From positions 172,559 through 236,558 of the forward strand of contig CAMXCT020000436.1 in NCBI GenBank assembly GCA_947184155.2: a DNA stretch of 64,000 nt, given 5' to 3'. The notes under the pieces are model-generated. The model did not search any database and had not been told where the DNA came from. It saw only the letters and a list, made by a program, of their open reading frames with translations. A program made the position numbers and the translations under genes. Below, one piece after another: positions 43,553-58,577 of the stretch (within the stretch, counting starts at the first letter, position 1; each line of letters opens with the position of its first letter). The DNA comes from Cladocopium goreaui (Eukaryota > Sar > Dinophyceae > Suessiales > Symbiodiniaceae).

Positions 43553-44329
43553 ATTGAGGGTTCAAGCAGCTGTAGACCCAAATCTCCCCCGCAGGCGGTT
43601 TCACAAACCTAACCCAAGCCATGCCTTTCTCTACCCCATGCAGGCTGTTACTCCAAATGATAACACGGGCCGGTAAGCTGCACCAAATGCTGATTCTCGC
43701 GAATCCATGGTTCGTCATCATCCCAGTCAGTTGATTCATCTATGGTGATCACAATGGGGACCCTGAATAAATAAACCTGATATGAGAATATGTTCGTCTG
43801 TGACTGGCCTAAGCGATGAAAGTCTGGGTTTGCCTGAAATAAGGCCCGCTGAGATAGCACAAAGGACATAGAATTGCAATTGTCGAACAGGATAAAGCCG
43901 TGAGAATCTCTGTCGTAATGTTGTAACTCAGCGGCCGTGGCACCCTGGACAGTTTGAATGAAAGGAGGCTTCTGGATATACGTAGGCAAAACGAAATGGA
44001 GGCATTTTGCCAAGGTGCTTTTGCCAGCGCGCGAAGGCGCCCGGAGCACAAGAAATTTGTACCGAGAATCTAAAATGGAATACTGTTTGGCCCAGTCTTC
44101 GACTCGGGCAACCACTTCTGGCAAAAATGGCTTTTGCAATGGCTGGAGCTGAGCCACCACTTCGGCCTGCTCACGTCGGAGGCGACTTTCGCTCTCCTGC
44201 TGCATGACTGCTTCCACAGCGCGTTTGCGGGTGATATAGCCCAAGCGCACCTGCAACCTGCTGCACACGGTGTTGACACTTTTATAGTGATAATTCTGGA
44301 GACATTGGCCCTCTTTCTGAAAATGCATC

Positions 44330-44890
44330 TATAGAATCAGAGACCCCAAGGTATTTTCAAGTTGACAATCTCTTTAGAATCGCTGCCCCCAAGTCACTCT
44401 CGTAGAGCCGTTTTTTGGTTGGGGGGGTTAGTTGGCCTTCTATAAAATCAGGCTCCCCAAGTGTCATTCATTGACAGCTGACCTGAATGCTCCAGTTGCT
44501 CTTGCCTACCTTACCTTATGCATTCCCAATTTTATAGAGCTCAAAGGCTCCAAGTGTTCACTGTCAACCTCTTCGATTATATACAAGGATGATCAATGAT
44601 GATGAAAGAATTGTTGTGGGAAATTGTTCTGCCAATACTTCTCTATAGAATTGAAGAACATGACATACACCCAAAGAGAACAGATCCAACTATAGAATCG
44701 CAGTGGCTAAGGCTTTCTGCTGACTAGGACTCAGTGCTGTATTCAACATGAAATCTCTATAGAATCAGAGGCCCCAAGGTCCTCTATACAATTGAAAGCG
44801 TTGACACTGGGTAGGTACCCCTAAACAAAGCAGGGGGTTAAAACGCACCATTTTCCAGGACCCAACGTTCTTGATTCTGTAGAGGAAATT
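44330..44890. repeat. Degenerate CTATAGAATC...CCCCAAG repeat in Rep intron 7 (unit 2)
   Basis: Six to eight imperfect copies of a 40-80-bp motif, CTATAGAATCAGAGNCCCCAAG, often followed by GTTGACA. Repeated in units 3 (52,918-53,480) and 4 (61,708-62,290). Function unknown. Confidence 0.6.
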
Positions 44891-45484
44891 CCAAGGGGGA
44901 TATTTGAAGGTATCTGAAGATATGTTACGGCCAAATTATTGCTTATGTTCGGACACTTTATCAGACTCGAAGCAGCACTTTTATAAACAACATAGGTGTT
45001 TGTGACGTTCCCTATTCTATGAAATGGACCTGCTATGAAGTGGTCCCACTGAAATTCACATTGGGTTTATGTTATGTTCCATTTCATACAAATCTTTTCG
45101 GAGTTGGTCAATATTCTGGTACCCGAAAACTGCCCGCACGCCACCCTTTCGCGAACCGTTCGCGCCCCAGCAGAATCGGGACAAGGAATTCTGATCATGT
45201 TTTCGTGCGCATATGTGTTTATAAATAGTGGTATGCAGACCTCGTTGAATTTTAAGGTTTCTCCATCCCACTTTATTACTTGTATATTATGGTACCCATA
45301 TTCCAGACCACATAAAATATGATAAAGAAACATTTATAGTATGGGTTTAATCATTTCATCCGGACATGGGTTCTTCCCTTCCATATAGAGCTTCAATCAA
45401 GGGGGATCGATAAACAGCTATTGACAAGTCAACTGCAATGACACCGCCTAAAGTGAGTCTTTGGCATCCGCACCCCTGGGTCCA

Positions 45485-45612
45485 TGTATATATATATATA
45501 TAGATATATCCATAGATAGATATAGATAGATATAGAAAGACATATCTTTGTATAGATCTGTCTCGAAGAGATATATATATATATATATATATATGTGTGT
45601 GTGCGTGTGTAT
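45485..45612. repeat. TA/GATA/GT microsatellites in Rep intron (unit 2)
   Basis: Simple repeats whose length differs between units (compare 54,078-54,205 and ~62,910-63,035), typical of slippage. Confidence 0.9.
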
Positions 45613-55350: not shown

Positions 55351-57402
55351 TCCCAGCACAAATGAACTGTGTTTGCAATTGAAACTCGTTATCAGGACCT
55401 TCAGATGGATCACCACATATATATGTTTATATGCAGAGATATATTTCGATATATCGATAGTGATAAATCTTGAATCAATGCGTACAAAGAAGAAGGATTG
55501 CCTATGCAAGACCAACCACGTAGATAGCGGTCCAATGAGTTCAGTTCATCCAAATCAGGCTCGTGGGTGCCCAGACCAAGGTGGCCTACAAAATGTTTGA
55601 CTGCAAACACGATCTGCTGCAAAGCTGCCAGGTCTACTGATGATCAACTAGAAGCTACGTCATGCTGCTGCCACACGATCGGATTAGTGACAAAGGTGGC
55701 CTACATGAACTGCAACTTTCAACATGAGATAGAATGTCGTTACAAGGTAACCCAACGGAGATGCACCTTTGCAGCCCAAACGTAAAAATGTCCTTGGTCT
55801 GCCGCATCTCGCCAGCGTGCGCCCCGTGCCCGACATGGGGAAAGATTGGGCTGAATGCCCTTGAAACGGAGCGCCGTGCATGATTGCCAGTCGACGGGGC
55901 GGGCGAATTCCAGGAAGCAATGAATATGTAGACGGCCAGCATCCTCCGAACGCAAACTTGATTCCATCGTGGCACTCCATTTGCCGACCCACTCACACGT
56001 TGCAAGCCAAGTAAGGAACTCATCGAAATCCGCCAGCTGCAGCTGCAAGGAATTGTAGGTTACCAACACTGCTCGTGCTCGAAGACGAAAAGGGCGGGCA
56101 TCACCTGTGAAAAATGTGCAACAATGAAGTGGCTGCGACTAGGACTCATGACTATACCCCTTCTAGTTCAGTCTCTCCCATCTGCATGCAAGGCTGAGGC
56201 TTGCCTACTGTCACGGATGCATGTCATGTCCATCCACTGCTCTAGGTCTCTTACCCTCCGGAAAGCACCGTCCCGGATGCAGGGACAGAATGGCAACTAC
56301 TTGCGGTCTGACCTGGTCCTGGGGCTGCTGCCATATCCACATCCTCTTGGGTCGATGCTGCTGCACCAGCTTCGTCTGCTGCTGCAACGCCCTGCAAAGC
56401 TGATTAGAAACAGTGTGAACCAGAAGGCCGTGCAAACCCAGCGAATGGTAGCACCAACCAGGACGGCTGAGCAAGTCGCAGCAGGGTGAGAAATGTGAAA
56501 AGTGACCCGAACAACGGGTCGCAGTCTTTAGCACCCGACAAACAGGTGAGGCACCTCATAGAGGTCAATGATGTCTCGCAGCTTCTGAGTGTCACTCGGA
56601 GACAAGGTGCAGTTCTCCAGGCGCTGTCGTTGCGCTGCAAAGTCGGCGCGAGACAATTCACCCCGAAATTTCGGCACCTCGAGCTGGTTGGCTTGCAGCA
56701 GTTCCCGCAACGACCCGCACGCAGCACGCTTCCGTGTCGTGGAGGATCTCATGGCTCGGCCCAAGTGCAATGCGGAAACATCCTGTCTGCATGGCATGTC
56801 TTGGGTGCAAGGCTCCAATGCGATGTGCTACGTCAGTTGCTTGCGACACCCCGCTTTGCTGTCAGGTGGCCCATTTCCTTTGGAGAGGGCTTGACACTAG
56901 AAACAGCAAGGAACTCACCACCACGTCCTTAAAGCAGAATGCAGGTCACAGGCTTGAGCATGAAAAAAGCACATGGAGCAGATAGTCTGCTAGCTGGACG
57001 TGCATATGGCCCACAGGTCTGGAAAAAGCGTGTCGACCGTTGACACCCAGGAATGCTGCTGATGATTTCCGCTAGAGAAATGTGACTGGTAGAGGCACGT
57101 GTCTGAGTAGCAATATCTACAGAGACGGTCTGCCCCAGAAACAAAACCGCTCACGGCCCATGTTTTCACCCGACGTGACTGCAGTTCTCTCCGGCTGCCG
57201 CTTCGCACACGTGCGATCCACAGAAGCCATGCTGCGACAGCACTGCAAAAAAAAGGAATGGAAGCTGGAAGAAGGGGTGGAAAAGAGGTAGATGTGATGT
57301 GGGAACATGGCCGCTGCAAATGATGGAATGGGAAGGATGTGCATGGGGGTAATGTCTTAAAGCTGCTGTTGCTGCTGCGCGCGACAGTACGCAATTACTA
57401 TA

Positions 57403-57532
57403 GGCGGGACCGCAGCGGGACCGCGGCGGGACCGCAAAATGTGGGAATTCCCACGATTCCAGGTTGCAGGCGGGACCGGTCCCGCCGTCGGCGGGACCAC
57501 TTTACCTGTGAATTTATAGGAGCGGGACCGCA
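57403..57532. promoter_or_regulatory. GCGGGACCGC iteron-like cluster (unit 3)
   Basis: Identical to the unit 2 cluster, including the inverted GGTCCCGCC and the 41-bp duplication that follows. Confidence 0.35.
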
Positions 57533-58577
57533 TACCCCGTTTGGGAATTATAATAATATACCAGGGGGGGTCAGGTGATGTTTTGGAGGTGGGGTGTGGG
57601 AAGATTCTTGGGGAGGTGATGTTTTGGAGGTGGGGTGTGGGAAGATTCTTGGGGAGATATCTTGTCTATCTAGCGTTGTATCCCTGGATGTCTTCTAAAT
57701 GGGGTCTCTGGACCGCGCATGTCTTCCAAGCGCTTTGTCTTCGACATGGCGCTTGCAAGTCTGCGGTTTCCAGCTTTCACTCCTGCCGCGCTATGCCTTT
57801 GGCATTGGGATTTTCAGCCTTGACATGGTCTCATTCCAAGCGCTCTATGTCTTGACCATGGCGCTTGCAAGTCTGCGGTTGCCAGCTTTCCCTCCTAGTG
57901 TCCATGCCTTTGGCATGGTGCTTTCGAACCTTCACATGGCCGCTCTCAATCCAAGCGCTCTATGTCTTTGGCATGGCGCTTTCCACATAGTGCACGGCTT
58001 GACTCTACTCATGCGGGCTTGCCATTGGATGCATGCGACGTGCCAGCAGCCACGTCAAATCACTCACATCCAGCTTTCCTGCTTGTCGTAGAAGACGTCT
58101 TCGTTTCCTTTCCTGCAGGCTATGGAGTACATGTCTTTCAACATGGGTTCAGCGTTCACAGGTCCCACCTGCACTCACGAAAAGACACCGTATCCATGCA
58201 TTTACATGCACTCTCCTGGTTCTGTAGTTCTTTGGTGGCTGCTGCTAACTGGCGTTTCAAATTTTTGCGCTCTTCCTTCAGCACAGCAACCCTATCAGCC
58301 GCGGCCGGGGGGCTGCAGCTGCCGCGGCGTTTGCATCAGCAGCGGACATGCACTCAAGGCGGGCGAACAACAGGCTTGCTCCACTCAAACTGCATGCAGT
58401 CCTCAAGATGATCCTGTGTTCTCTTTGTGCTTGCCTGGTACCTCCTTTTCACCCTGTTCACGACCCCAGAAACATGGCTACGAGAATGTGACAAAATGGT
58501 CATGCACCGATGTACCCTGATAGTATGTCTGCCAATGTGTGCTCTGCCGCGCAATTTTTCTCCCGGCTCGCACCTCG

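Follow-up and report, generated by a model that had tools for sequence, protein, structure and literature searches.

The stretch of the Cladocopium goreaui genome analysed here (64,000 nucleotides, hereafter the window; C436:172559-236558 of a 1.166-Gb assembly of 6202 contigs) contains a minus-strand, head-to-tail array in which a gene for a Rep-like protein with HUH endonuclease and P-loop domains is repeated. Self-comparison of the window revealed a partial copy at 39549-41550, copies B (41551-50141) and C (50142-58521), which are about 99% identical, and copy D, which runs from 58522 to beyond the window end with 95-99% identity; the array extends outside the window to about C436:248,547. 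The comparison of 28 loci demonstrated that two modules alternate head to tail, X (2.0 kb), which carries a DDE_1 transposase gene, and Y (6.4 kb), which carries the Rep gene, and that one XY unit measures 8.4 kb (Table 1). Judged from its sequence, the element is a Rep-carrying composite of the DDE type.

In copy C the Rep gene model comprises five exons with GT-AG splice sites (R1-R5, minus strand, 56752-52239), which when spliced give 1350 uninterrupted nucleotides encoding 449 residues and a stop. On the minus strand, every block quoted in a first-pass annotation of this DNA is present: VLVTYNS, GRLHIHCFLEF and GHFYVWAAK within R3, VGTHFVATSS at the opening of the next exon R4, and the P-loop block in R5. 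The K-x-G that it saw restored after motif III is also found, as the R3/R4 junction reads AAK-V-G, the same as in the contiguous homologue P0027. The extent of the gene had to be revised: the range 43648..58349 (14.7 kb) spans two tandem copies, fusing the R5 exon of copy B with DNA upstream of copy C, whereas one complete gene lies at 52239-56752, within a single 8.4-kb unit.

Of the 1902 fragments from six-frame translation of the window, a profile built from homologues after the window row had been removed from the alignment matched 12 at E ≤ 10, every one of which lies within the array and on its minus strand, with E-values of 4e-90 for R5, 8e-41 for R3 (copy C), 1.6e-18 for R4, and 3e-7 (B) and 5e-7 (C) for R1. 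The profile search recommended in the first-pass annotation, made with homologues, recovered R1, R3, R4 and R5. Pfam matched neither R3 nor R5 of the window. As most full-length homologues begin at or near R1, there is no support for exons that precede it. On the strength of splice signals and homology, from which the model was derived, we regard the Rep gene as real. Copy B reads VLVTYTS instead of VLVTYNS, and its R3 is 1 nt shorter, which shifts the frame before motif III. All five exons were located in 10 copies of the gene, seven of them open in every frame and three (window copy B, L022 and L026) with one 1-nt deletion in one exon; 13 further copies, located only in part, were left out of this count. 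Part of the 1-nt deletions may come from homopolymer-type assembly errors.

In module X the Asp residues of the DDE_1 open reading frame (ORF) lie in LNLDETS, LLLDVASSH and QPLDIAGF, named as the catalytic triad by eye. Among 15 X copies the variable columns were all singletons, with window copy D as an outlier (about 15-20 substitutions), and within- versus between-array divergence in these 15 copies revealed no grouping by array. The ends of X appear inverted; when the outer 3 nt were excluded, 29 of 5000 shuffles reached the observed score.

To survey the element across the assembly, the genome was searched with protein P0018, and 124 of the 1067 candidates were scored, 115 of which were taken as window type (the nine others, of the L001-L008 type except for one copy, were left out); the counts are lower bounds. 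R5 copies of the window type are spread over at least 64 contigs; where a contig has two or more matches, as in 26 cases, these are always on one strand. The amplified unit of the first-pass annotation is dispersed and evidently mobile. The spacing between matches equalled a unit in 34 of 51 cases (22 at 8.2-8.9 kb and 12 at 4.3-4.5 kb) and differed in 17. The 4350-bp unit consists of X and a Y derivative (Y') without u3206-7239 and hence without R1-R4, and homogeneous Y' arrays were seen on four sampled contigs.

Module ends were read with exact anchors in the window and L009-L052, with copies carrying a substitution in an anchor excluded; one anchor match was spurious. All 26 flank-facing ends that were read adjoin TA: X-left ends as TA-CAG (2) or TA-TAG (1), X-right ends as CAG-TA (4/4), Y-left ends as TA-CAT (9/9) and Y-right ends as TAG-TA (10/10). 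The internal joins consist of exactly three nucleotides and contain no TA in 45/45 cases. We observed X-CAT-Y in 22, Y-TAG-X in 20 (21 by the other anchor) and X-CAG-X in 3, with no Y-Y join, so that X and Y alternate in 42 of the 45. Four of the eight Y loci read at both ends, which had been picked for one scored match per contig, are solo. Twelve further X right ends were followed by a TA flank (4), by Y (7) or by X (1); the four TA-flanked ones were considered as solo X and rejected, as their left ends adjoin Y.

The ends of Y show inverted similarity at 9 of 15 positions in register, which 110 of 20000 random pairs reach; our first reading of clear inverted repeats on Y was dropped after a shuffle test. 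Near the Y and X ends we found no stable hairpins (z of +1.5 and +1.6 for Y, mononucleotide shuffle). Separately, GGTGCATG is present on the minus strand at the coding 5' ends of Y (58501-58508) and X (52120-52127), about 15 and 18 nt from the ends, has no other occurrence in the two modules, and could be a shared binding site. Its placement at an equal distance from both 5' ends (8/20000 random pairs) was dropped, as the outer 3 nt of X had been left out in the register test and the true distances are 15 and 18.

Table 1. Modules, genes and predicted exons of the array (window coordinates).
Feature	Position	Strand	Remarks
Module X, first copy, left array edge	39548..41552	-	flank TA at 39546-39547; right 3 nt CAG common with next X
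Module X, copy B	41550..43554	-	joined to Y via CAT
Module Y, copy B	43552..50143	-	Rep gene with R3 1 nt shorter; poly-C tract 47039-47227
Rep gene, copy B	43648..48349	-	frame shifted in R3
Rep exons, copy B	R1 48349-48152, R2 47988-47910, R3 47701-47365, R4 45863-45739, R5 44257-43648	-	
Module X, copy C	50141..52145	-	DDE_1 transposase-like gene
DDE_1 domain ORF in X, copy C	50198..51094	-	Pfam PF03184, 6e-07, 29.6 bits (cut-off 22)
ORF, probable N-terminal part of X transposase	51095..51928	-	intron to DDE ORF only a guess
Module Y, copy C, 6381 bp	52143..58523	-	ends CATTGAGGG...CCCTGATAG
Rep exon R1, copy C	56555..56752	-	ATG; RKR-type N-terminal domain; profile match
Rep exon R2, copy C	56313..56391	-	acidic/Ala-rich linker; GT-AG sites and phase only, without profile match
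Rep exon R3, copy C	55767..56104	-	HUH endonuclease domain; VLVTYNS, LHIH, HFYVWAAK
Rep exon R4, copy C	54331..54455	-	VGTHFVATSS...YLQYA
Rep exon R5, copy C	52239..52848	-	P-loop/SF3-like domain and stop
Module X, copy D	58521..60806	-	insert of about 280 bp, low complexity
Module Y, copy D	60804..64000	-	runs past window; R5 broken by purine-rich insert of about 130 bp

The C run in Y of copy B (47039-47227) is 189 nt long and absent from copy C, and may be a sequencing or assembly artefact; the low-complexity inserts of copy D at 59729-60008 (X) and 61324-61453 (R5) are not in copies B and C. Both the run and the inserts resemble errors of sequencing or assembly. An open frame at 49773-50003 (minus strand), close to the 5' end of Y and outside the Rep model, contains a coiled-coil-like stretch (VAVLKEERKNLKRQ), and 1-nt differences to copy C occur near it. 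Elsewhere in the window we noted two very long frames of 1540 and 1787 aa at 6369-16237 (minus strand), with blocks that by eye resemble the endonuclease and reverse transcriptase of the long interspersed nuclear element type; a 380-aa frame with a Cys-rich start at 31630-32769 (plus strand); and a minisatellite of 19 bp with about 63 copies at 28151-29364. Neither the two long frames nor the 380-aa frame had a Pfam match at E ≤ 0.01.

The search with R5 retrieved 32 proteins at E ≤ 0.01, and a seven-row profile 75 proteins at E ≤ 0.1; the organism-named matches in both lists (8/8) belong to the Symbiodiniaceae (Symbiodinium necroappetens, S. microadriaticum, Effrenium voratum and Cladocopium goreaui). 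Many other matches are contiguous frames of 400-526 residues, mostly on contigs of 1.4-6.4 kb, and we infer that these short contigs are transcripts. The contiguous homologue frames show that the N-terminal, HUH, R4 and P-loop parts belong to one protein. The full-length open family members are diverged, mostly with 50-64% identity to P0018 and down to 25% for P0087. The latter represents a sister Rep family (P0087 and P0096-P0114; 20 proteins found with P0087), in which Walker B has DE and motif C has Asn and motif III is the same Y-x4-K. In addition, the same genome has a second Rep family (L001-L008), which by eye looks identical to a portion of P0049, a protein of Cladocopium goreaui. In six of its eight loci, with 5/6 flanks distinct, TA followed by CTGTAGAGGCCG marks the boundary at the coding 3' end; in L002 and L008, which have the same flank, CA stands there.

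Searches of 30 and 45 family members against Pfam gave weak P-loop matches only (best 0.0018 and 0.0025), and in the 45 members PF00910 was matched in four (best 0.074) and PF23343 in two (best 0.016), all weakly. Sequence searches of the PDB reached 0.043 and 0.13 at best with profiles and returned nothing for P0087, and PHROGs yielded ATPase, kinase and primase matches (best 2.8e-4). In the open-licence literature, the titles listed on dinoflagellates with HUH endonucleases or circular Rep-encoding single-stranded (CRESS) DNA elements did not describe the family or the element; subscription papers were outside the scope.

When structure models of the Rep were compared by Foldseek and VIA, they matched CRESS Reps. 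The HUH endonuclease fold is present in the Rep model. The AAA+ fold of the P-loop domain is clear; Foldseek favoured a CRESS Rep and papillomavirus E1, whereas VIA tied many AAA+ ATPases and did not single out superfamily 3 (SF3) proteins. Motif II is LHIH in the window, and both His are kept in 43 of the 44 pattern-matching proteins (of 94 in the family). The Tyr of motif III is invariant in 37/37 rows of the R3 alignment and lies five, not three, residues before the Lys, so that the motif is not YxxK. This Lys is present in 48 of the 50 family-1 matches and 12/12 sister-family matches to a pattern that presupposed the Tyr and matched 50/94 and 12/20 proteins, respectively, many of the family-1 non-matches being fragments. 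At position K-3 the 50 family-1 matches have W (33), F (9), Y (6), G (1) or C (1), and the sister family has Q (12/12). As the Tyr at K-5 is common to two families at about 25% identity, it is the probable nucleophile. In the VIA ranges it falls within about 2 residues of what we take to be the catalytic Tyr of tomato yellow leaf curl virus, porcine circovirus 2, wheat dwarf virus and faba bean necrotic yellows virus, a placement that assumes gapless alignment at a model end with a predicted local distance difference test value below 50.

SF3 helicases have an acidic pair in Walker B and an Asn in motif C. In the window these motifs read FDN and TID, and both are degenerate across the family, with Walker B DN in 77 of 78 matches and motif C T[VI]D in all 69 listed. 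The Walker B-like and motif C-like blocks of the first-pass annotation exist in altered form, and its full HUH-SF3 Rep is upheld as a spliced, Rep-like HUH and P-loop gene model with predicted CRESS-like folds, but not in SF3 motifs B and C. Judged from models and alignments, the window family is Rep-like by fold and departs from the canon in two P-loop motifs and one nuclease motif. The nearest folds being CRESS Reps, the locus could be read as an endogenous or domesticated CRESS virus. We consider such an origin very improbable: the Rep lies in a TA-bounded, multi-copy module and has predicted introns, none of the 232 pattern matches in viral contigs was confirmed as a relative, and a tblastn search of phage records, made with R5 only, gave none either, no capsid-directed search being included. 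A domesticated single viral gene is moreover disfavoured by the many nearly identical dispersed copies.

The first-pass annotation had also seen the Rep as the possible engine of a mobile element. The unit is evidently mobile, but its end signature (TA at 26/26 ends, 3-nt joins and a DDE transposase) is that of a cut-and-paste DDE element, and the Rep is therefore not established as the sole engine. According to the part of PMC7827188 cited here, on one strand the cut of Sleeping Beauty and mariner lies three nucleotides inside, which leaves 3-nt 3' overhangs, and TA is duplicated on insertion; the same part records that an integration-deficient Sleeping Beauty mutant gives transposon circles. 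We lean towards an element that carries a Rep and is moved in concatemer form by DDE cut-and-paste, with XY amplified as a block. The X transposase would excise X and Y and leave 3-nt 3' overhangs, head-to-tail ligation of the excised ends would produce a circle or concatemer of XY, the XY unit would then be amplified as a block, and pieces ranging from one module to at least five units would insert at TA by the exposed outer X or Y end. The action of X on Y ends and the existence of circles are presumed here.

Direct head-to-tail ligation of 3-nt overhangs predicts 3-nt joins without TA, as found for all three kinds, and the uniform orientation fits because CAG/CTG overhangs anneal head to tail only. 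The overhangs differ by one base at X-Y (CAG, CAT) and at Y-X (TAG, CAG), yet each join has one form. Since independent ligations should give a mixture, the XY unit probably arose once and was then amplified as a block. An X with TAG at its flank (C3112, L019) fits re-excision at a Y-X join or a point change. The near-identical copies are recent, and the element is possibly active.

The amplification data fit Rep rolling circle, unequal crossing-over and host replication alike and do not separate them. Amplification driven by the Rep is attractive because the partner module carries this gene, and a rolling circle between excision and insertion is plausible; that the Rep performs rolling-circle amplification of excised XY is nevertheless the least certain part of the scheme. 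Several observations weigh against cut-and-paste of Rep-carrying concatemers as outlined above. In sequence, a duplicated TA looks the same as insertion at T^A that duplicates nothing. The inverted ends of Y are weak (local shuffle test not significant, 1463/5000), so that the X transposase can only be supposed to recognise Y, and X was never seen alone, the four flank-facing right X ends having Y on the other side. Y' without the HUH exons is amplified in arrays too, where the Rep would be unneeded in cis and could act in trans, and unequal crossing-over could lengthen arrays without it. Finally, the displaced motif III Lys and the non-canonical Walker B and motif C make nicking and unwinding by the Rep uncertain.

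A doubtful alternative is an ordinary DDE transposon with the Rep gene as passive captured cargo and arrays growing by unequal crossing-over after insertion. The DDE_1 domain, TA flanks and 3-nt joins would suffice for movement, Y' without R1-R4 has been amplified equally well, and the section of PMC9412976 used here reports 1998 genes in tandem repeats for Cladocopium goreaui. Yet many diverged family members keep full-length frames and 7/10 copies are open, which suggests that the protein matters, and the homogeneous Y' arrays on four sampled contigs would need repeated crossing-over of the same trimer.

The opposite arrangement, in which Y is an autonomous rolling-circle transposon and its Rep nicks the Y ends, replicates a single strand and inserts it at T^A, with Helitron-like arrays and X as captured cargo, seems unlikely to us. 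The open HUH-P-loop Rep in 7/10 fully located copies, the head-to-tail arrays together with solo Y at 4/8 loci, and the second Rep family (L001-L008), which also begins at TA-C in 6/8 loci, are in its favour, as is the fact that TA duplication is indistinguishable from T^A insertion; Helitrons form tandem arrays and duplicate no target (PMC5876387, in the passages cited). It leaves unexplained why a DDE-encoding X also ends at TA and why the 3-nt joins are uniform, and the absence of a stable hairpin near the Y ends and the altered motif III, Walker B and motif C speak against it.

A tentative extension of the favoured DDE cut-and-paste reading is a hybrid cycle in which DDE chemistry excises both modules, the overhangs ligate, the Rep copies the circle by rolling circle and DDE chemistry inserts the concatemer at TA; we hold this possible, on clearly weaker grounds than DDE movement of concatemers as such. 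If such a cycle operated, it would unite in one element both separate chemistries of eukaryotic DNA transposons, and amplification of DDE-excised circles by a Rep would be a new transposition route that helps to explain the long tandem arrays of dinoflagellate genomes. At the same time, these results describe a sizeable dinoflagellate family of Rep-like proteins that combine HUH and P-loop domains and have an unusual motif III, a family that bears no Rep name in the sources, and a eukaryotic genomic home for Reps beyond viruses and plasmids.

Helitrons are defined by a CTRR 3' end, a hairpin and A^T insertion, and their helicase differs from the SF3-like P-loop domain. These end features are unmatched in Y, the coding 3' end of which reads ...CCCTCAATG followed by TA and has no stable hairpin; the window element has instead a T-A boundary, 3-nt joins and an SF3-like P-loop domain. 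What it has in common with Helitrons is an HUH protein and head-to-tail tandem arrays in a eukaryote, while Helitrons are described with other ends and without target duplication (PMC5876387, passages cited above). With Replitrons, described in the cited part of PMC10741241 as HUH elements of 0.9-4 kb without inverted repeats and with 5-11 bp direct terminal repeats, it has in common an HUH enzyme in a eukaryotic transposon, whereas module Y has a P-loop domain, measures 6.4 kb and on inspection shows no terminal direct repeat at its ends. Replitrons are also not known to have a helicase. CRESS-DNA virus and pCRESS plasmid Reps have the same domain order, HUH fold, HUH motif and P-loop domain, and canonical Reps have YxxK or YxxKY as motif III (PMC6668415, in the portion cited). 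The window Rep differs from them in its Tyr at K-5, FDN, TID, extra N-terminal domain, predicted introns, chromosomal transposon setting and only weak Pfam matches. Unlike Tc1/mariner elements such as Sleeping Beauty and mariner, the window element consists of two different modules, one with a Rep, in alternating arrays, and its Y ends are barely inverted; with this type it has in common the TA flanks, the apparently inverted ends of X and a DDE_1 gene, and its 3-nt joins match the known 3-nt overhangs.

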